This document shows, in pieces, positions 3,962-36,112 of a stretch of DNA of 36,112 nucleotides. This DNA is from Paludibacter sp. (GTDB taxonomy: Bacteria; Bacteroidota; Bacteroidia; Bacteroidales; Paludibacteraceae), in NCBI GenBank assembly GCA_028691965.1, contig JAQUYE010000024.1, positions 1 through 36,112 on the forward strand. Direction: 5' to 3'. The first letter of the stretch is position 1. Each line of letters opens with the position of its first letter. The position numbers were made by a program, and so were the translations under genes. The notes below the pieces were generated by a model. That model saw nothing but the letters and a program-made list of their open reading frames with translations, did no database searches and had not been told where the DNA came from.

Positions 3962-4666
3962 TTATTCGCCTGCCTGAGGTGTAATCAGTTTATACCCTTT
4001 ACCGTGGATATTTATGATAGCCACATTAGGATCATCTTTTAGCAGTTTACGAAGCTTGGTAATGTAAACATCCATGCTACGTGCGTTGAAGTAGTTGTCG
4101 TCTTCCCAAATCGACTTCAAAGCATAGTTCCTTTCCAGGATACTGTTTGCGTTTGAAGCCAACAGGCGTAGCAGTTCAGATTCTTTTGTAGTAAGTTTCT
4201 TTGTTTCACCATCAAAAGTAAGTACCTGTTTCTGGGCATCAAATATAAATCCTCCGATGTTAAAGACAACCACATCTTTTACTTTTTTGCCTTTCACCCT
4301 GCGCAGGATGGATTCAATGCGGGAGAGTAATTCTTCCATGCTAAACGGTTTCGAAAGGTAATCGTCGGCTCCGAGCTTGAATCCCTGGAGGATATCTTCT
4401 TTCATTGATTTAGCAGTCAGGAATATAATCGGAACTTCGGAATTAATATTACGAATGTCAGCTGCAAGTGCAAAACCGTCTTTTTTGGGCATCATTACGT
4501 CAAATACACATAAATCGTATTTGTTTTTTGTGAATGCTTTATAACCAGCTTCTCCGTCTGGCTGAAGATCTGCATCATACCCTTTGGTCTGTAAATATTC
4601 CCGTAGTAACATGCCGAGGTTTTCATCATCCTCGCATAATAAAATTTTTACTTTTTCATCGTTCAT
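3962..4666 (-). CDS. rprY: OmpR-family response regulator RprY
   Basis: This 234-residue regulator has an N-terminal receiver domain (about 6-122). The acidic pocket is E12-D13-D14, the predicted phosphoacceptor is D56 in DLCVFDVMMP, and the switch residues are T84 and K106. A C-terminal winged-helix Trans_reg_C DNA-binding domain follows (about 135-230), with ESELLRLL and RSMDVYITKLRKLL typical of the OmpR/PhoB class. Wording such as ILLCEDDENLGMLLREYLQ matches Bacteroides RprY as I remember it. RprXY was described in B. fragilis, and RprY homologues are linked to stress responses in related species. The gene overlaps the 3' end of the kinase gene by 11 bases, and a terminator follows it. 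Confidence 0.93.
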   Translation of the reverse strand: MNDEKVKILLCEDDENLGMLLREYLQTKGYDADLQPDGEAGYKAFTKNKYDLCVFDVMMPKKDGFALAADIRNINSEVPIIFLTAKSMKEDILQGFKLGADDYLSKPFSMEELLSRIESILRRVKGKKVKDVVVFNIGGFIFDAQKQVLTFDGETKKLTTKESELLRLLASNANSILERNYALKSIWEDDNYFNARSMDVYITKLRKLLKDDPNVAIINIHGKGYKLITPQAGE

Positions 4667-6194
4667 AATCGAAACTTTTTAGTGTTGGTAATGCTATAAT
4701 AAATTTGGTACCTATGTTTAATTCACTTTCAACCTTAATTGTACCTTTGTGTTCGTTGATAATTCGTTTGACGTAGGCCAGGCCTAGTCCAAAGCCTTTT
4801 ACATTGTGTTTGTTTCCTGTAGGAACCCGGTAGAATTTTTCAAATACCCGTTTCAGATCTTCCCGGGGGATACCAATACCATTGTCCTCTATACTGATAT
4901 ATAATTTGTCCTTATCATTCCAGGTTTCCAGGTTAAGCAGTAAAGGTTTATCCGTATACTTAAGGGCGTTGTCCATTAAGTTATGAATAACGTTTGTAAA
5001 ATGAACCTCGTCGGCCACCACCAAATCGTCGGTTGCTTTTAACAGGGTAGTTAATTTTCCTCCGCTGTTGGCAACTTTCAAGGAGAAGATTTCAGCGGTA
5101 TGACTTATCAGTTCGTTTACATTCATCTCCCGCATTTTGTAAGTCGCTTTTTCAGATTCAAAGAGCGATAGCTTTAATACCTCCTCAACCATACGGCTAA
5201 GCCTTCCGGTTTCATCCAGTATCACCTTGGAGATATGCTTAAGTGTCTCCGGTGTTTTACCTACTACCGGGTCCTGAAGCATTTGCGATGCCAGGGAGAT
5301 ACTCGATATCGGAGTTTTTAACTCATGCGTCATGTTATTAACAAAATCATTCTTAATATTGTTCAACTGTTTTTGTTTAAAAATAACAATAATGGCGACA
5401 ATAAAGATGAGCAATATTAACACAACTAGTATAATAGTGGGGTAGAGCAGACCCATCGAACTAATTATGTAGTTTTTTTTAGTCGGGAATGTTACTTCAA
5501 TAAATGCTTCTTTGGTCGAACTTTCAGAAGGAAATAATTTTTGGGTGTAGAAGTTTCTGCCGTGAGCACGGTGTAGTTCGTGAAAGTCCTTATCACAGGT
5601 ATAAATCTCGCTGCCGAATTTATCTACTATACTGTAATAGAAAGGCAGGTCGATTCCGTTGCTTAGTAAGTATTTCTCAATTATGGAGTTAAGCTCTGCG
5701 AAGTTAACCCGTTCGCTGATCTCTTTCTGATCTTTTTCACGCAACCATCTGAAAACAGCCTGGTCGAGAACGGTTTTGCTTCGTGAGAAGTTTTCCCTGA
5801 ATTTGTTTTGCAGGTAGCGGGAAGTTTCTTCTATGGTTGCTTTGCCATGATGTGCCGAGATGCGTATTTTAGGTTTTTCAATTTTTTGAGTGGTAACTTC
5901 TAAACGCTGGGTGATGGTATCCATCTGAAGACTTTTGTTGATCTCAGCTAAGTTGGAGAGCTTGTTGGGGCTTTTGTGAAAATCGTTTCCTTCAAGAGTC
6001 TGAGCCATATATTCTAAGGCTTCGTTTTCTTCAACTAATCTTACTGTTTGGTAAAGACTCCTCTTAACGCTTTCATTGAATTGATTCTCAATCATTTCAG
6101 CGTTTACCATAACGTAGCGTGCCTGGATCAGAATTAATCCGATAAAGGTGAATAGCATCGACAGTATGAGAATAATTATCGTAGTTTTTTTCAT
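4656..6194 (-). CDS. rprX: Membrane sensor histidine kinase RprX
   Basis: This 512-residue kinase is predicted to phosphorylate RprY. TM1 is at about 5-25 and TM2 at about 244-272. Between them lies a periplasmic sensor region of about 215 residues with no domain I recognise. The HisKA domain follows, with the phospho-accepting H290 in MTHELKTPISSIS, then a HATPase_c domain with an N box (NLMDNALKYT), a G1 box (DNGIGI) and a G2 box (GFGLGLAYVK). There is no HAMP domain between TM2 and the H box. The gene is upstream of rprY with an 11-base overlap, which suggests translational coupling. The start at 6194 opens directly with the signal-anchor sequence. Confidence 0.93.
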   Translation of the reverse strand: MKKTTIIILILSMLFTFIGLILIQARYVMVNAEMIENQFNESVKRSLYQTVRLVEENEALEYMAQTLEGNDFHKSPNKLSNLAEINKSLQMDTITQRLEVTTQKIEKPKIRISAHHGKATIEETSRYLQNKFRENFSRSKTVLDQAVFRWLREKDQKEISERVNFAELNSIIEKYLLSNGIDLPFYYSIVDKFGSEIYTCDKDFHELHRAHGRNFYTQKLFPSESSTKEAFIEVTFPTKKNYIISSMGLLYPTIILVVLILLIFIVAIIVIFKQKQLNNIKNDFVNNMTHELKTPISSISLASQMLQDPVVGKTPETLKHISKVILDETGRLSRMVEEVLKLSLFESEKATYKMREMNVNELISHTAEIFSLKVANSGGKLTTLLKATDDLVVADEVHFTNVIHNLMDNALKYTDKPLLLNLETWNDKDKLYISIEDNGIGIPREDLKRVFEKFYRVPTGNKHNVKGFGLGLAYVKRIINEHKGTIKVESELNIGTKFIIALPTLKSFDYER

Positions 6195-28160: not shown

Positions 28161-28201
28161 AAAAGAGGGCTGTACTGAAAAATTCAGTACAGCCCTCTTT
28201 T
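28161..28201. terminator. Bidirectional terminator between rplQ and the receiver gene
   Basis: A perfect 19-bp inverted repeat (28161-28179 and 28183-28201) with a 3-base loop ends in AAAA on the left and TTTT on the right, so it works on both strands. It closes the ribosomal cluster on the plus strand and the kinase operon on the minus strand. Confidence 0.95.
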
Positions 28202-28221: not shown

Positions 28222-28590
28222 TTAATTGGCAGTAACTTCTTCTATCTCCTGGGTAATTTCTTTTACATTAAAAGGTTTTTGAAAGTACCTGCGTATTAAA
28301 CCCTTGTCGAGTGCATGCTGAATCTCATCCGAAATCTCAAATCCGGTAAGGATGTAATAATTTAGGTGTTCGGCAAGTTCCTTAGCACTGGCAATAAACT
28401 CAGTCCCGTTCATTTGTGGCATTTTCATATCGCTGATCACTACCTTAATGTCCTTGTTGGTACGTAGCACTTCCAATCCTTCCTTGCCTGATTCGCAGGT
28501 TATGACGGTATACTGCTTTTCGAAATTCATTTTAAAAAGAAGTAAATTCAGCGATTCATCATCTACGTATAAAATAGTTTTCTTTTCCAT
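28222..28590 (-). CDS. Receiver-only response regulator
   Basis: This 122-residue protein is a single CheY-like receiver domain with no output domain. The acidic pair D10-D11 (LYVDDE), the predicted phosphoacceptor D54 (VVISDMKMP), T82 and the switch K105 (QKPF) are all present, so it should accept phosphate. It is the last gene of the minus-strand operon, and its ATG overlaps the stop of the kinase before it by one base (TAATG). With three kinases upstream it may be a shared phosphate acceptor or relay to an output protein encoded elsewhere. The target is unknown. The sequence resembles receivers used in hybrid kinases. Confidence 0.9.
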   Translation of the reverse strand: MEKKTILYVDDESLNLLLFKMNFEKQYTVITCESGKEGLEVLRTNKDIKVVISDMKMPQMNGTEFIASAKELAEHLNYYILTGFEISDEIQHALDKGLIRRYFQKPFNVKEITQEIEEVTAN

Positions 28591-29690
28591 TATTCCTGGT
28601 TTAAAAGTGGTAATGTAATAATAACAGTTGTACCCTTGTTGAGGTTCGATTCTATTTTCAGGTTTCCCTGGTGGTTCTTCAGGATTGTAAAGCTTATTGA
28701 CAAGCCAAGTCCGGTTCCTTTTCCGGGTTCTTTAGTGGTATAAAAAGGATCCATTACATGGGCAAGATTACTCTCGTCTATTCCACAGCCTGTATCGCTG
28801 ATGCAAATACAGATATCTTCGTCTTTTACAGCTGTCTGAATGCTTATGGTCCCTTCCTTGTCTATAGCCTGAACTGCATTGATAAGTATGCTGATCAGGG
28901 CCTGATGTAACTGCCCCGGATTTCCGAGAACAAGTAACTCATCACCGCAGTAGTCAGTCTCAATGTTGATACGTCCGGTTATGTGATAATTAAGGATCGC
29001 AATACAATTGTCAATAATAGCATGCACACTGCATTTTTCAAAGCTGGAATGGCTGCTACCACTTAACTGGTTCATTCCGCTGACAATAGTTGCTATTCGC
29101 TTTGTCTGTTGCGTAATTGTTTCAAGTTGGTCGGTAATATCCGTCTTTATAATTGGCTCTTCTGCCAGCTTTTGTTCTATTAGTATGGCCCCCGATTCGA
29201 TAGCTCGCAGTGGAGTATTTAACTCATGAGCAATTCCTGTCGTCAAAATACCAACCGCCATCATCCGGTCGGTTTGAGCAAGTTGAGCCTGCGTGGAACG
29301 GAGTTCGTTGAATGCCTTACTCAGATCCCGGTTTTGCTGGTCAATTAGCTCATTCCTGCTGTTTAGTAGTTGGTTCGTTGATTGTAACTGAATGATGGCA
29401 GCATCAAGTTCCCTCGTCTTATCCTGTACCATTTCAGTCAGGTGATTTTTATGCTTTTCCAATTCAGCTTCTGCAGTTCTAAGTCGCCCGAGGTGCTTCC
29501 GTACAAAAAACAACAGTATTAACGAGGTTGTTATTACATAAAACCACCCTTTGATGGTCTGCATTAAACTGATACTCTCAGCCGATGCATTAGGTCCGAG
29601 TGCAATTACCTTATCGGACAGTAAAATCCAGGTTGAACCGATGAGCAGGTAAGCAAGAGAGATACGGTACTCAAATTTTAGTTTTGTCAT
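28590..29690 (-). CDS. Two-TM sensor histidine kinase
   Basis: This 366-residue kinase starts with two hydrophobic segments (about 11-29 and 45-63) joined by a short loop; ISLAYLLIGSTWILLSD and QTIKGWFYVITTSLIL resemble a small membrane module found in front of PAS kinases in other bacteria. A long coiled coil follows (about 68-140). The dimerisation domain has H155 in GIAHELNTPL, a different type from the two other kinases of this operon. The ATPase domain shows ILINAVQAI (N box), DTGCGI (G1) and GKGTGLGLS (G2). It overlaps the PAS kinase gene by 4 bases and the receiver gene by 1, and is the likely direct partner of that receiver. Confidence 0.9.
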   Translation of the reverse strand: MTKLKFEYRISLAYLLIGSTWILLSDKVIALGPNASAESISLMQTIKGWFYVITTSLILLFFVRKHLGRLRTAEAELEKHKNHLTEMVQDKTRELDAAIIQLQSTNQLLNSRNELIDQQNRDLSKAFNELRSTQAQLAQTDRMMAVGILTTGIAHELNTPLRAIESGAILIEQKLAEEPIIKTDITDQLETITQQTKRIATIVSGMNQLSGSSHSSFEKCSVHAIIDNCIAILNYHITGRINIETDYCGDELLVLGNPGQLHQALISILINAVQAIDKEGTISIQTAVKDEDICICISDTGCGIDESNLAHVMDPFYTTKEPGKGTGLGLSISFTILKNHQGNLKIESNLNKGTTVIITLPLLNQE

Positions 29691-30976
29691 TTTTTCTTAA
29701 GGTTAGATTGCTTGTTAACAGGTTGTGGTATCGAAAAATGAAATTCGCTTCCTTTCCCGGGGGTACTTGTTACCCAGATGTTACCGCCTTGTTTCTCTAC
29801 GAATTCTTTACAGAGAACTAATCCCAATCCCGAACCTTTCTCTCCGTTAGTACCGGACGTTTTGTGTTTATTATCGATCCGAAATAAGTTTTCAAGATGT
29901 TCGGGTTCAATTCCTACACCGGTGTCGGTAACTGAAAAATGGACAGAAGTAGCTTCGGTTTGAACCCTGACTGTGACTTTCCCGTTTTCGGGGGTGAATT
30001 TAAGTGCATTTGAAACCAGGTTGCGTAATGCCATTTTAGTCATTTCCTTATCTACAAAGCTGATATCAGATGCGTTAGTTTCAATGCCTAAGCTGATGTT
30101 TTTAAGTTGTGCCTGTTTCATCGAAAGATACTGAATTTCTTCCAGTAATTCGTGTACTGGTACATGTGTCTGGTTGGGTTGAACAATTCCTCTGTGAATT
30201 TTTGACCAGTCGAGAAGGTTTTCAACCAGCTGATAAGCTTGTTTGGCAGCGCTGGCCATTTCGCCGGCAAATTCAGTAATTTCATCAGCAGAATAAAGAG
30301 CGGCATTTGCTTTTAAAATATCGCTGAATCCTATGAGCGAGTTAAACGGGTTGCGCAGATCATGCGCTATCAGCGAGAATAACTTATCTTTCGTAGCATT
30401 CAACTCGTTTAGTTGTTCATTATTCTTCGTGAGGTTTTTGTTTAATTTGCTGATTTTCTCATTTGATTCTGATAGTTGTTTGTTGATGATGGTGTAACCG
30501 GAGTTTACCCTGGCTAACTCGTCGTTGGATGCCTTCAATTCATCAACCATCTGTTCTATTAAATGTGTCTTTTTGATTAATTCCCGTTGCATGAGGGTAT
30601 TCTCGCCGTTTAAACGGTGCATCATCATATTATACTCCAGTAGCTGAGATACATCCACACCTCCGGCAATCAACAGCTGATTATTCCGGTAGTAGACTTT
30701 TGCCTCTATGGAGGTATTAATGGAGTAATTGTCGCCTAAAGTCAGAGTGCCCGTAAAGATAGGATTGACTTGTTTGGTAAGATTACACAGGTCATCAAAA
30801 TGAGGGTTGACAAAACTCTCAATGGGGTCGTTCTTAATAAGCAAGCCAAAGGCATCATTGCTGAACAGGAGCTTCCCCTCCAGCGTGAAAATTGCGATAC
30901 AAAAGGCATTTGTTCTTACAAGTGACTGTTGTATCTCGTCGAACCAGGCTGATAATATCGTTGATGATTCTTTCAC
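29687..30976 (-). CDS. Cytoplasmic PAS histidine kinase
   Basis: This 429-residue kinase has no membrane segment. An N-terminal PAS-like domain (about 18-112) is seen in IAIFTLEGKLLFSNDAFGLL. A long coiled coil rich in Asn, Leu and Lys follows (about 120-195). The HisKA domain has H205 in LIAHDLRNPFNSLIGF, and the HATPase_c domain has NLVSNALKFT, DTGVGI and GEKGSGLGLVLCKEFVEK. The last block is very close to the six-TM kinase of the same operon (GEKGSGLGLILCKEFVEK), so the two are probably paralogues. It overlaps the B12-protein gene by 4 bases and so is probably translated together with it. It is a good candidate for the direct effector of the B12 sensor; this is inference. Confidence 0.92.
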   Translation of the reverse strand: MKESSTILSAWFDEIQQSLVRTNAFCIAIFTLEGKLLFSNDAFGLLIKNDPIESFVNPHFDDLCNLTKQVNPIFTGTLTLGDNYSINTSIEAKVYYRNNQLLIAGGVDVSQLLEYNMMMHRLNGENTLMQRELIKKTHLIEQMVDELKASNDELARVNSGYTIINKQLSESNEKISKLNKNLTKNNEQLNELNATKDKLFSLIAHDLRNPFNSLIGFSDILKANAALYSADEITEFAGEMASAAKQAYQLVENLLDWSKIHRGIVQPNQTHVPVHELLEEIQYLSMKQAQLKNISLGIETNASDISFVDKEMTKMALRNLVSNALKFTPENGKVTVRVQTEATSVHFSVTDTGVGIEPEHLENLFRIDNKHKTSGTNGEKGSGLGLVLCKEFVEKQGGNIWVTSTPGKGSEFHFSIPQPVNKQSNLKKK

Positions 30977-31620
30977 AGTTTTTCGTTGTTAAGGTATTCT
31001 TCCAGTTCGTATAAATCGGCCGCAAAGTACAGGTTTTTGTAGGATGAACTTATTTCGTTGCCACCTTTGCGGAATCCCTGACCTCCCACAAGAACAGGCG
31101 TTTCGGGGAATTGTGCCCGAAGTTGATTAATCATGTCGACCAGAGCGGGAAGGTTAAAATGCAAACTCATGGATATGGCAATCAATGTGGGTTGAATTCC
31201 GCTAGCAAAGCTGATAAGGTCTTTAACCGGTACATTTGCACCCAAAAAATAGCTTTCCCACCCTTTATTCTCCAAAAGGTCGCTTACCATTTTTACCCCG
31301 ATTTGATGGTATTCGCCCGGTACACAGGCAATAACAGCTTTCTTGCCGGTCAGTTTATCGGGCTTCATGTATAAATACATCTCTGAAAGAAGGTTCTCAA
31401 CAATAGCTGCTGCCATGTGTTCGGTGGCAACACTCAGCTGATGCTTCTCCCATAAATCACCCACCTCGTACATGCTTGGTTTCAACAGCTGTTCGTAAAT
31501 CGCTTTGTAGTCTGTTTTACTTTTCATTAAATCCCGGAGTATGATTGAACAACCGGCTTTATCACCCTTAATTAATGCTTTCTCAAAAGCGCTGATTGTA
31601 GCTTCTTTTAATTTGTCCAT
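30973..31620 (-). CDS. Stand-alone cobalamin-binding protein with CarH-type photoreceptor motif
   Basis: This 215-residue protein has a helical cap (about 1-85) and a Rossmann-like B12-binding domain (about 92-212). In the cap, W57-EKHQLSVAT-E67-H68 fits the Wx9EH motif of adenosylcobalamin photoreceptors of the CarH/LitR type. In the B12 domain, E103-Y-H105-Q-I-G108 fits the lower-ligand motif (D/E)xHxxG, with SMS at 150-152 and the GG at 179-180. There is no MerR-type DNA-binding domain, so output must be through a partner. The residue after Trp is Glu, whereas CarH has the His that binds cobalt in the light. I start at the ATG at 31620; the in-frame ATG at 31677 would overlap the upstream gene by 32 bases. 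Corrinoid methyltransferase partners are absent; a heme-binding SCHIC-type role is an alternative. Confidence 0.85.
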   Translation of the reverse strand: MDKLKEATISAFEKALIKGDKAGCSIILRDLMKSKTDYKAIYEQLLKPSMYEVGDLWEKHQLSVATEHMAAAIVENLLSEMYLYMKPDKLTGKKAVIACVPGEYHQIGVKMVSDLLENKGWESYFLGANVPVKDLISFASGIQPTLIAISMSLHFNLPALVDMINQLRAQFPETPVLVGGQGFRKGGNEISSSYKNLYFAADLYELEEYLNNEKL

Positions 31621-31645
31621 AGTACTGATGTTTACTAACTTTTTT

Positions 31646-33001
31646 TTAAATAGCCGGCGTTTCTTCCGGCTTTGCAACAGGCATCGTGAAGCTGATAGAG
31701 GTAAATTTGCCGGGCGTACTGGTAATTGTCATCCGGCAGTTGTGCTTTTCGACAAATTCCTTGCATAAGATCAGACCGAGTCCACTCCCTTTCTCGCCCA
31801 GTGTACCATCCTGACTGGTACTCCTGTTGTTGTGCAGGACAGAATTAATTTGTTCAGGAGTCATGCCGACACCTGTGTCGGCTATCGTTATGGTAACATA
31901 CCTTCGTTTAGGTACGGCTGACAGACGAATTTCCCCCTCTTCGTGGGTGTACTTTATAGCGTTGTTAAGTAAATTGCGGATAATCAGCATCAGCATATTC
32001 TCATCAGCATTTACCATCTGAAAACTGTCAATCTCATTTACAATGGTAAGTTGCTTTTTAAGGGCCATTGTAGAATAAATATTAATATTCTGCTTTACAA
32101 TTGAATTCAGGAAAAGGTTTTTACGGTCCATCCGGAGTGTTTCGGAATGCAGTTTTGACCATTGTACCAGATTTTCAATTAATACGAGGGTGTTTTTCGA
32201 ACTATCCGACAAGAGTCGCAACATTTCCTTCATCTCTACCTTGCTGTAACTCTCATATTGCTTTTCCATCAACTCGGTTAATCCCAGTAATCCGGTAAAA
32301 GGAGCTCTCAGGTCGTGCGAAATCACTTTCAGTAGTTTAAGCTTGGTGTCGTTTGCCTGCTTTGCCTCCGCTAATAATTTCTCTACCTGCAGTGAATTCC
32401 GTTTAAGTTCGCGTGCACTGGTTTGTAGCGATTCTTCCTGTTTACGGTACAATTTGTTTACAGCATAAAGCACTATTGAAAATGTTCCCAGTACTACTAT
32501 CAAATCCGACATCCTGAACAGCAGCTCATAGCGCATCAAAGTTTCAGAGGGTGGTGTAAATAGTTCTTTGTGACGGAAAATGGTTATTAGTACATAGGAT
32601 GTAAGGTTATACAGGGTGAAGAATATTTGTTTGCGTACATTCACAAAGGAAAAAAAGGTAAGTACTAATCCTATAAAGATGAAATCCTCAACATGAAGTG
32701 TGCCTCCATAAATGAATGCCAGACTAAGTGCCATTGGGGCAAAAGCCAGATTACCGGTTATGATAGCTGCTTTATGATGGTTTAAGTAGTTTAAAACAGG
32801 TACAAAACTAAACCATACTATAAACACTAAGTTTACAATTCCGGTTGTGGCCTGTCCTAAAAAAACAAGCATAAAAAAATAAATTAAATGCAAGATACTC
32901 CCTATCAGAGCAAGGACGTTAAAAAGCCGTATAGTTGCCACCCGTTTCGGATCTGTAGCAGTTCCCGTGCCAAGTTTAAGATAGGTGCTTAGTGGATTCA
33001 T
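31646..33001 (-). CDS. Six-TM sensor histidine kinase
   Basis: This 451-residue kinase opens the operon. About six hydrophobic segments lie at 27-48, 54-72, 80-100, 105-122, 126-143 and 163-183, with only short loops, so it probably senses something in or near the membrane. A coiled coil (about 185-220) leads to HisKA with H229 in VISHDLRAPFTGLLGL, then HATPase_c with NLLNNAIKYT, DTGVGM and GEKGSGLGLILCKEFVEK. Its catalytic half resembles the PAS kinase two genes downstream. The start at 33001 is 18 bases from a candidate -7 element. The stop is 25 bases before the B12-binding protein gene. Confidence 0.92.
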   Translation of the reverse strand: MNPLSTYLKLGTGTATDPKRVATIRLFNVLALIGSILHLIYFFMLVFLGQATTGIVNLVFIVWFSFVPVLNYLNHHKAAIITGNLAFAPMALSLAFIYGGTLHVEDFIFIGLVLTFFSFVNVRKQIFFTLYNLTSYVLITIFRHKELFTPPSETLMRYELLFRMSDLIVVLGTFSIVLYAVNKLYRKQEESLQTSARELKRNSLQVEKLLAEAKQANDTKLKLLKVISHDLRAPFTGLLGLTELMEKQYESYSKVEMKEMLRLLSDSSKNTLVLIENLVQWSKLHSETLRMDRKNLFLNSIVKQNINIYSTMALKKQLTIVNEIDSFQMVNADENMLMLIIRNLLNNAIKYTHEEGEIRLSAVPKRRYVTITIADTGVGMTPEQINSVLHNNRSTSQDGTLGEKGSGLGLILCKEFVEKHNCRMTITSTPGKFTSISFTMPVAKPEETPAI

Positions 33002-33018
33002 AGTAACAACTTTATATG

Positions 33019-33026
33019 CAAATATA
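33019..33026 (-). promoter_or_regulatory. Candidate -7 element of the kinase/B12-sensor operon
   Basis: On the minus strand this reads TATATTTG, an exact TAnnTTTG match, a short way upstream of the six-TM kinase start. A TTTG lies 23 bases further upstream and an ATTG 18 bases upstream, neither at the ideal spacing, so the -33 part is uncertain. The gap has no room for a cobalamin riboswitch. Confidence 0.5.
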
Positions 33027-33122
33027 TTGTTTTTCCTCTAATTTCAATGCAAAAAGGCAGAATAGCAGTAAAAAACAGGATGGATTCGCTAAGTGATAAG
33101 CAAATAATCGGTCATAGGTAGC

Positions 33123-34525: not shown

Positions 34526-35143
34526 TTATTTAAGCAGTTTTAATCCACTAAGCGCCGATTCGTCGTTTTTCCGTAATGTGAGAGCATGCTGAAAAAGTAT
34601 TCGTGCTTCAGCTGTTTTACCGAGGTTGAGTTTTGTCCATGCCAGCATAATTACAGAGTCGTAGTCGAGCGGATAGAGGTTGACAACCTTCTCGAAAAGT
34701 CTTGCAGCCGCCATGTACTCTTTGCGGTTGTAATGGATAACTCCCAGCCAGTAGCTGGCAACGGTATTTTGAGGATCGATCTTTAATATCTCCTGGTACT
34801 GCAGTTTTACCTGGTCCCAGTTGGACGTTGCACTCAGGGGCTTAACAAGTCCGAAACGTGCTTCGATCGAATAAGGTTTCAGGCGAATAGCCATGCGGTA
34901 AAACTTTTCCGATTTAACTTGTTGTCGGGCCAGGTAATACAACCATCCCAGTCGCAGGTTAATAAAGTAATCGTCGACTTTATATACCGGCATCAGCTCA
35001 TTGATTGCCTGGGCGTATTTACCATTTGTTTCTGCCTCGTAGCTGTTGTAAAACGCATTTTGCCAGTTGGTGGTCGACTGAGCTACCAGAGTTCCGGTAA
35101 TCAGTAATAGCATACCGAAGATAATTTTTTTTACATTTTCCAT
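34526..35143 (-). CDS. Exported TPR-repeat protein
   Basis: This 205-residue protein starts with a signal peptide (basic MENVKK, hydrophobic core about 7-20, likely cut after LVAQ), so it acts in the periplasm. There is no lipobox Cys. The rest is TPR-like helical repeats: pairs with the W-LG-Y and A-F-P spacing, for example VASYWLGVIHYNRKEYMAAA then RLFEKVVNLYPLD near 128-160. TPRs bind other proteins. The gene overlaps the beta-barrel protein gene upstream by 13 bases, so the two products probably work together, perhaps as a periplasmic adaptor for the barrel. I do not recognise a specific function. Confidence 0.85.
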   Translation of the reverse strand: MENVKKIIFGMLLLITGTLVAQSTTNWQNAFYNSYEAETNGKYAQAINELMPVYKVDDYFINLRLGWLYYLARQQVKSEKFYRMAIRLKPYSIEARFGLVKPLSATSNWDQVKLQYQEILKIDPQNTVASYWLGVIHYNRKEYMAAARLFEKVVNLYPLDYDSVIMLAWTKLNLGKTAEARILFQHALTLRKNDESALSGLKLLK

Positions 35144-36112
35144 TGGATTCCCCCTGTTATTCCGTGTTGTTTATAATATTCATCCCACATTACGAGGTGT
35201 TTTTTTTCTACCCCATAGTGCAAAGTAAGTGCCAGGTTCTTCATCAGATAGGCAGTGATCGATCCTCCTGTCTTAACTACAACAGGAACAAGTGAATTAT
35301 AAAAATAGAGTCCGTCATTGGCCACAAAGTACCGCTGATCACCCCATGTCGTCGATCCTTCTATCCACAACCGCCCTTTCAGAAATCCTACACCTGCTGT
35401 TTGATTGAAAACAATGTGCGGGTAATTGTATTCTTCCAGTGTATTATAATCGGTACCGGTTTCGTTCATCCTGTAGAGCGAACTTTTAAGATACACCGGC
35501 AATCGGCCTGAGAATCCGGTTCCAAGGTGGATACCCCACTGATTGACCTGTAAATAATCAGTTGTAAAATGATGATAGCTACCTGCCAGGTCGAATCGGT
35601 GCCAGTTATAATTTAGTTTAGCTGAAAAACTATTGCCCGGAGTATAAAAGGTGTCAGGGTGCACTACTGAGCGTGTCCCCACATAACGATATCCCCCGGT
35701 AAAGTTGAGCGTGCTGGTTGCTTGCCAGCTTAGAAAGGCGCTGTATTCGAGCTGATTGGTGTTGTTGCCATAGTCGTATTCTTGTTGGAAGCCCGACAAT
35801 GACTGATAGAGCGATAGTCGGTAAGTAGGTAGTGTTAGAAGACCTATGCGACGGAAATGGGCATCTTCACGAAGGTCGTTTTCCCGAAAAAACAACTCCG
35901 GGCGTTTAAAACTATACTCTGCATCCATGCTGTACAAGGCATGAAAGGCTTTTACCTGATTATACGATCGGGTGGGTTCGCTTAATTTACCTGCATGAAG
36001 TCGTGCGGCAAGGAGATGACCGGTATGGAGGTAATTGTAATAGAGGTATAAATGAGTTATCTCGTCTTCGCTATCGTAGCTGAGAGCATTCAGGTAGTGC
36101 TTTTTACTGCGG
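35131..36112 (-). CDS. Probable outer-membrane beta-barrel protein (C-terminal part)
   Basis: The frame is open to the window end, so the N terminus is missing; 326 residues are visible. The sequence is rich in alternating aromatic and polar residues with Gly and Tyr, for example LNFTGGYRYVGTRS, FSAKLNYNWHRFDLAGSYHH and LALTLHYGVEKKHLVM, which is the pattern of antiparallel barrel strands. It ends GITGGIQWKM, a strand-like end although the last residue is Met and not aromatic. The first 60 or so residues look more like a helical domain (NALSYDSEDEITHLYLYYNY). No TonB plug or SusC mark is visible in this part. A TTG at 35937 is not a credible start because the frame continues upstream. Function unknown. 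Confidence 0.7.
   Translation of the reverse strand, partial: RSKKHYLNALSYDSEDEITHLYLYYNYLHTGHLLAARLHAGKLSEPTRSYNQVKAFHALYSMDAEYSFKRPELFFRENDLREDAHFRRIGLLTLPTYRLSLYQSLSGFQQEYDYGNNTNQLEYSAFLSWQATSTLNFTGGYRYVGTRSVVHPDTFYTPGNSFSAKLNYNWHRFDLAGSYHHFTTDYLQVNQWGIHLGTGFSGRLPVYLKSSLYRMNETGTDYNTLEEYNYPHIVFNQTAGVGFLKGRLWIEGSTTWGDQRYFVANDGLYFYNSLVPVVVKTGGSITAYLMKNLALTLHYGVEKKHLVMWDEYYKQHGITGGIQWKM

Follow-up and report, generated by a model that had tools for sequence, protein, structure and literature searches.

A stand-alone CarH-like B12 protein encoded next to a PAS-type histidine kinase in Paludibacter: a candidate light-sensing module

Results

A five-gene cassette on the minus strand

We analyzed a stretch of 36,112 nucleotides from Paludibacter sp. 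(assembly GCA_028691965.1, contig JAQUYE010000024.1), hereafter the window, in which a gene for a B12-binding protein is packed together with genes for three histidine kinases (HK1, HK2 and HK3) and a response regulator. The open reading frames (ORFs) and the sequence place these five genes head to tail on the minus strand in the order listed below, with a gap of 25 bases between HK1 and the B12 gene and subsequent overlaps of 4, 4 and 1 bases, just as a preliminary description of this DNA had claimed.

31646..33001, minus strand: HK1, 451 amino acids; membrane histidine kinase with a multi-helix membrane N-domain
30973..31620, minus strand: B12 protein, ATG start, 215 amino acids; B12-binding_2 cap plus B12-binding domain
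29687..30976, minus strand: HK2, GTG start, 429 amino acids; soluble kinase with HisKA and HATPase_c
28590..29690, minus strand: HK3, 366 amino acids; predicted membrane N-terminus, AtoS/ZraS-like core
28222..28590, minus strand: receiver, 122 amino acids; receiver-only response regulator with intact phosphorylation site

Pfam finds HisKA and HATPase_c in each of the three kinases and one Response_reg domain in the product of the last gene. The features of two-component systems, namely the H, N and G boxes of the kinases and the receiver Asp, are present: the H and G boxes are found in the kinases, the N-box of HK3 was read by eye, and the receiver has the acidic pair, Asp, Thr and Lys, the Asp lying within VISDMKMP. 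Neither an Hpt domain nor a hybrid kinase was detected by Pfam among the five cassette proteins. As for the membrane helices, which had earlier been put at six in HK1 and two in HK3, membrane regions are indeed predicted in both kinases, while the hydrophobic peaks over the cut used number five in HK1 and one in HK3, such transmembrane counts being approximate. The N-domain of HK1 gave a weak MASE7 match, below the cut-off.

The B12 protein carries the signature of B12 photoreceptors

Pfam assigns the 215-residue B12 protein the domains B12-binding_2 (5e-16) and B12-binding (7.5e-19) and nothing else above the cut-off. This includes the absence of any MerR-type or other DNA-binding domain above the cut-off, so that the earlier statement that the protein differs in this respect from the CarH/LitR repressors holds. 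The light signature described for B12 photoreceptors consists of GxxW, EH, GxxH and GxxxP (PMC11796333; this and the other papers are cited from parts of their texts), and the window protein carries all four motifs (G54xxW57, E67H68, G102xxH105 and G127xxxP131). Its nearest solved relatives in a PDB sequence search are photocobilins (8j2x and 8j2w, both SasPcob, and 8j2y, AbPcob), followed by CtMerR (8jbs) and CarH.

A contig scan with five aligned members gave 176 matching loci, of which the best 80 were analyzed; together with the window they make up a family alignment of 81 rows. In these rows, which were found with scan patterns that contained EH or the lower His, W57, E67 and H68 are invariant (80/80 covering rows), as is H105 (81/81). 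In all B12-domain controls (7/7), taken from this genome and related ones, Phe stands in place of the Trp and Glu-His is missing. A profile-found set of 25 loci (L117-L141, including the window's own locus) has G54, W57, E67 and H68 in 23/23 covering sequences and H105, G127 and P131 in 25/25. All four published motifs occur in 13 of the 81 rows, the window included. In 64/81 the Gly of GxxH is an Asn, so that most rows would be lost if the published pattern were applied strictly.

Glu58 of the window protein sits at the position of His132 in TtCarH. Glu is found there in 76/80 rows, and most globin-B12 fusions have Leu, Phe or Gln. Judged from the sequence, the absence of this His would preclude a bis-His state. 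Photocobilins and CtMerR lack His132 and are light-responsive nonetheless (PMC11796333), and in these solved cases the movements upon light response are smaller. The window genome encodes a cobalamin adenosyltransferase; therefore, adenosylcobalamin should be available. The B12 protein is thus probably a CarH-like B12 photoreceptor domain freed from its DNA-binding part, which would be expected to bind cobalamin and to respond to light.

The B12 gene is followed by a kinase gene in most relatives

To call a downstream neighbour, we demanded that it be located on the same strand, at most 1.2 kb downstream, with at least 600 bases of room, and the window itself was excluded. By this rule, a gene for a kinase domain or an HK2-type N-domain follows the B12 gene in 71/77 testable loci (an earlier count including the window gave 72/78). 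Among other genes in the same loci, 78/561 (14%) pass the same test, and this control is strict since the loci are rich in kinases. The 71 loci include L111, although there the N-domain sits on a GGDEF enzyme. Six loci gave no downstream kinase call (L051, L080, L099, L101, L104 and L113): L101 does hold a kinase ORF, the called start of which is too far upstream for the rule, and the next gene in L104 encodes a 201-amino-acid protein without a Pfam match. Chance adjacency of B12 and kinase genes was rejected on these numbers (71/77 versus 78/561).

The distances in the B12 and kinase trees are correlated (63 pairs, r 0.71; highest of 2000 shuffles 0.20), also when the test is restricted to the HK2 N-domain (44 pairs, r 0.71; highest shuffle 0.32). 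The loci span 13 labelled phylum-level groups, with Bacteroidota accounting for 53 rows; it should be noted here that the labels are those of the submitters and that some bins may contain foreign contigs. Named cultured strains with the module are Lutibacter oricola DSM 24956 (L048) and Marinifilum breve JC075 (L039). Within the order, which we took to be Bacteroidales on the basis of named relatives, 25/295 genomes have a B12 match with an E-value of 4e-36 or lower, and 44 have one at the looser value of 1e-20.

Two of the loci without a kinase call, L080 and L099, hold sister B12 genes with neither a kinase nor a globin downstream, near genes that by eye are of TonB and sulfatase type; their products are possibly orphan sensors. 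Two other loci, L056 and L075, have B12, kinase and globin genes on contigs labelled Candidatus Methanofastidiosum (archaea), which points either to genuine transfer or to contigs in the bins that do not belong there.

Conservation of the five-gene order in a relative had been named as a test in the preliminary description, and the refuting outcome did not occur. All five genes are present in order in Paludibacter sp. 47-17, with protein identities of 54-76%, which also speaks against chance, and Paludibacter sp. RS341 keeps the first four genes, the receiver being missing. In both, the cassette occupies the same site as in the window, with an aminotransferase gene on one side and rplQ on the other. 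At 20 further rplQ loci of congeners (flanks of up to 1.5 kb, some ending at contig ends; G033 outside this sample), no HK3, receiver or aminotransferase gene is present, so that none of them offers a clean empty site. The conserved core is the B12 protein plus a PAS-type kinase, which is smaller and more widely spread than the five-gene set.

HK2 as the presumed partner

Pfam finds no PAS domain in HK2, which had been described as a PAS kinase. Its AlphaFold model (built on 35 sequences, mean pLDDT 85.3) has a PAS-like order of strands and helices at about residues 20-110, followed by one very long coiled coil, and this fold makes the label plausible. Most Foldseek matches cover the kinase core alone. 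Some are whole sensor kinases and LOV-kinase chimeras aligned over about 440 columns with an rmsd of about 50, and because of this rmsd the likeness is local, one of parts.

A profile of the HK2 N-domain, made from 16 sequences that are all B12-gene neighbours and used at a cut-off of E 1e-6, matches in 10/295 genomes of the order, with one copy in each, and every one of these genomes also has a B12 gene. The two genes adjoin in 9/10, and in the tenth (G115) they are on two contigs. In L111 (6284-8857), the B12 gene and an overlapping globin gene are followed by a gene for an HK2-type N-domain (45 bits) with PAS and GGDEF domains; here the same module appears to be placed on a diguanylate cyclase instead of a kinase. 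In L064, L084 and L114, HK2 bears its own C-terminal receiver. This enzyme swap and these fused receivers suggest that the N-domain is the docking or input part and that an Asp receiver is a usual target. HK2 is probably a dedicated partner of the B12 protein.

A globin accompanies the pair in most relatives

A globin goes with the B12 gene in 61/80 loci. It is encoded by a stand-alone gene 3' of the B12 gene in 55 (in 40 between the B12 gene and the next kinase-type gene, in 15 beyond the latter), by a gene 5' of it in 3, and is fused to the B12 protein in 3; none was found in the remaining 19, some of which are cut by contig ends. The stand-alone globin is helical, mostly of 140-165 amino acids, and neither Pfam nor a PDB sequence search gave a convincing match. 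In a fold search with its model (pLDDT 92.3), phycobilisome and allophycocyanin chains came first (TM about 0.6, top 0.63, probability 1.00). The profile of the stand-alone globin aligns with that of the fused N-terminal globins (hhalign probability 91, E 1e-6), and fused globins match Pfam Phycobilisome (L035 at 1.1e-8; L036 at 3.8e-4, below the cut-off). By these matches, most of the relatives examined look like two-gene photocobilins. From the model, the globin may hold a bilin, and the wider family resembles a photocobilin that has been divided into separate proteins and linked to a histidine kinase.

RS341 has a globin gene on a contig other than that of its cassette (L200, G330:C361, 4382-4843), with no B12 or kinase gene beside it within 5.9 kb. 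This gene appears to have been left behind or moved relative to the B12 cassette. By its gene content, Paludibacter looks to have lost the globin from the cassette.

HK1, HK3 and the receiver

The membrane domain of HK1 was found in 2/60 genomes searched (the window's and G033), both of which have the B12 gene, and also in RS341. In 15/81 loci, among them the three of Paludibacter, the B12 gene is preceded by a kinase gene at a distance of no more than 400 bases.

HK3 and receiver genes adjoin in G027 and G029 (43% and 57-58% identity), where no B12 gene of the family is present, and these B12-less pairs contain the receivers that are closest to the window's outside the cassette (57-58%). In G052 and G059 the receiver is located beside larger kinases with an HK3-type core. 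No B12 gene was seen in the stretches fetched around the receiver in these four genomes; G059 has a B12-kinase pair elsewhere. In RS341 HK3 is the last gene of the cassette, with 97 bases separating it from rplQ, and the receiver's best match in that genome has 34% identity. In seven loci (L058, L073, L081, L086, L088, L096 and L097), the core of HK2 is HK3-like, and the next gene encodes a protein that combines a receiver with a kinase; the receivers in these fetched loci are 29-41% identical to that of the window.

HK3 and the receiver are probably a separable two-component pair that was recruited into the cassette. The proposal that the five genes form one conserved phosphorelay was rejected, since the receiver is missing in RS341 and HK3-receiver pairs stand alone in G027 and G029; what is conserved as a unit is the B12 protein with its PAS-type kinase, and Pfam showed neither an Hpt domain nor a hybrid kinase among the five proteins.

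In G027 the B12-less HK3-receiver pair is followed by a lycopene cyclase gene (L194, G027:C94, 4557-5720; Pfam 9e-45), then by CheR and a large kinase. A link of this pair to carotenoids is possible. No lycopene cyclase gene is present at the HK3-receiver pair of G029.

Flanks of the cassette and other genes of the window

33019..33047, minus strand: candidate Bacteroidales-type promoter; TTG, 18 bases, TATATTTG; 17 bases ahead of the HK1 start
28161..28201, no strand assigned: perfect inverted repeat with arms of 19 and a loop of 3, between the receiver gene and rplQ

The candidate promoter conforms to the Bacteroidales-type consensus and is the single match to this pattern in the window, yet 0.79 matches are expected by chance. 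The inverted repeat, likely a two-way terminator, was read in the sequence and then checked, the terminator scan not having flagged it. In the promoter and terminator scan of the window, matches were no more frequent than in shuffles. The earlier claim that no methyltransferase or mutase gene is near the cassette holds for the 12 flanking proteins scanned, a subset of the window's genes.

A separate pair of an OmpR-type regulator and a histidine kinase is encoded at 3962-6194 on the minus strand. At 34526-36111 there are a TPR protein and an open-ended frame of 326 amino acids without a Pfam match, and these two also adjoin the aminotransferase gene in 47-17 and RS341.

Discussion

We consider it rather probable that the B12 protein functions as an adenosylcobalamin photoreceptor domain of the CarH type and that its target in trans is the neighbouring HK2, which it most likely contacts at the PAS-like domain. 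In the dark, adenosylcobalamin would sit with the Trp/Glu-His cap above it and His105 below. On exposure to green light, the Co-C bond would break and the adenosyl group would leave. Because Glu58 replaces His132 of TtCarH, the light state is expected to have water or hydroxide as a ligand in place of a bis-His arrangement, and the accompanying helix shift should be modest, as it is in photocobilins. This shift would then change the kinase/phosphatase balance of HK2. A membrane input may come from HK1, the kinase encoded directly upstream, whose catalytic part is of a similar type, and HK3 and the receiver, probably a second two-component pair, could provide an output that diffuses; B12/HK2 signalling, too, may possibly run through the receiver. 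We infer both the contact with HK2 and the direction of phosphotransfer. The best reading of the input at the B12 protein, gating HK2 in trans, is a change in light (or redox). Action in trans has a precedent, since stand-alone photocobilins modulate in vitro a cyclase that is a separate protein (PMC10979010).

Because most relatives encode the phycobiliprotein-like globin at the same place, the ancestral sensor probably used two pigments, B12 and bilin, spread over separate genes. There seems to be an even chance that the loci represent a widespread class of light-gated histidine kinases, in which a separate B12 photoreceptor, often with a separate bilin globin, acts on a dedicated PAS-like kinase domain, and of which Paludibacter has a stripped one-pigment version with two extra kinases.

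Several observations weigh against light gating of HK2 by the B12 protein. Paludibacter is, we presume, an anaerobe, in which a light sensor is less expected, and a B12 gene of the family occurs in just 2/36 genomes of the sampled genus (the window's and G033). The conservation of the signature in the 80-locus scan is partly built in by its patterns, the agreement of the trees may reflect shared descent alone, and the exclusivity of the HK2 N-domain is partly there by construction because its profile was built only from B12 neighbours. Moreover, among the 25 genomes in the order whose B12 match has an E-value of 4e-36 or lower, 15 lack a match to this N-domain. Four loci from these 15 genomes (L123, L128, L129 and L135) encode globin-B12 fusions, and the next ORF there contains another N-domain running into a kinase, that is, a PAS-type kinase of another sort. 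As to the globin, its Foldseek E-values are weak (best 8.6e-3, none below 0.001), and the heme globin DosC appears at rank 9; the fold does not fix the ligand, because DosC scores nearly as well as the phycobilisome chains. The stand-alone globin was not found in the genome of the window (89% complete) or in G033 (99% complete), nor in G058, in a search of which the positive controls (G172, G251 and G178) all gave matches. Finally, the H132A variant of TtCarH is mostly still tetrameric in the light (PMC10442372).

Among the alternatives, we rate at somewhat below even the view that one operon unites two unrelated signalling units, with B12/HK2 (and HK1) acting on a regulator elsewhere and HK3-receiver answering a stimulus of its own. 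The lone HK3-receiver pairs of G027 and G029 fit this view, and so do the receivers that G052 and G059 have next to larger kinases whose core is of HK3 type, as does RS341, which has the first four genes, no receiver in place and a best genome match of 34%. The overlaps of the genes and their conserved order in 47-17 argue against it, however, as do the seven B12 loci in which an HK2 with an HK3-like core is followed by a receiver of 29-41% identity.

We regard it as unlikely that the B12 protein senses redox, oxygen or B12 supply, binding cobalamin and controlling HK2 in response to the redox or ligand state of cobalamin and not to light. Such a sensor would suit the presumed anaerobic host and the many relatives named after groups that we take to be anaerobes, for example Desulfobacteraceae, and the change of His132 to Glu in 76/80 rows is compatible with it. 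CarH itself combines photo- and redox chemistry (PMC10442372). However, the Trp and Glu-His that hold the photolabile adenosyl group, which a plain redox corrinoid protein would not need, are kept in all covering rows of both sets (80 and 23), and the fold of the partner globin is closest to light-harvesting bilin proteins. An ordinary metabolic corrinoid protein that lies beside kinases by accident is hardly credible and was rejected, since its signature residues are unlike those of 7/7 B12-domain controls, a kinase gene adjoins in 71/77 loci and no methyltransferase was seen among the 12 flanking proteins scanned, even though the two Pfam domains are those of MetH-/MtaC-type proteins, whose models matched below the cut-off.

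If the B12 protein does gate HK2 by light, B12 photobiology would reach histidine kinases, which are among the largest classes of bacterial sensors, through protein-protein contact in trans, and the pairing suggests a possible route by which bacteria could convert light into a kinase signal. The module could then serve as a kinase controlled by green, perhaps red, light. It is compact, occurs on contigs of many phyla and is present in named cultured strains, which makes it directly testable. Should the class exist, the published signature, if applied strictly, would overlook most of the rows in it, given the Asn in GxxH of 64/81.

Comparison with known systems

Literature titles and the openings of abstracts gave no operon of a B12 protein and a histidine kinase, the photoglobin neighbourhood literature lying outside this comparison. 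In the photoglobin study of Schneider et al. 2022, phycocyanin-like globin and B12 domains are said to have neighbourhoods with signalling genes. The globin is thus reportedly tied to a B12 domain there, whereas the window itself has no globin, and we do not claim that a B12-globin-kinase operon is unreported. In the portions of the main texts drawn on here, the term 'histidine kinase' does not occur (PMC10979010, PMC11796333 and PMC10151467).

BBAG-2 clusters resemble the relatives of the window in that a biliverdin-binding globin and a B12-binding protein each have a gene of their own, and they carry a bilin reductase of the pre-PcyA type (PMC10151467). With CarH/LitR, the window protein has in common the B12 cap and B12-binding domain, Wx9EH and the lower His. 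The MerR-type DNA-binding domain and His132 of these repressors are absent from it; Glu58 takes the place of the latter, and the presumed output is a kinase.

The closest comparison is with the photocobilins SasPcob and AbDPcob (PMC10979010), which have the same B12 photoreceptor domain and are nearest by sequence in the PDB. The claim in the preliminary description that no system of this make-up has been described is too strong, since photocobilins already provide a B12 photoreceptor that acts on an enzyme in trans (PMC10979010). A globin joined to the B12 domain, which marks photocobilins, is not part of the window protein: photocobilins are one polypeptide with a biliverdin globin, whereas the relatives examined mostly encode the globin in a separate gene and none was found in the window genome. 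The target of photocobilins is a GGDEF enzyme and that of the window protein presumably a histidine kinase. Like the window protein, photocobilins have no His at the His132 position. Those of the stand-alone kind influence an enzyme in trans, as is proposed for the window protein. The link between globin and B12 domain is shared by many relatives of the window, whether fused or side by side.

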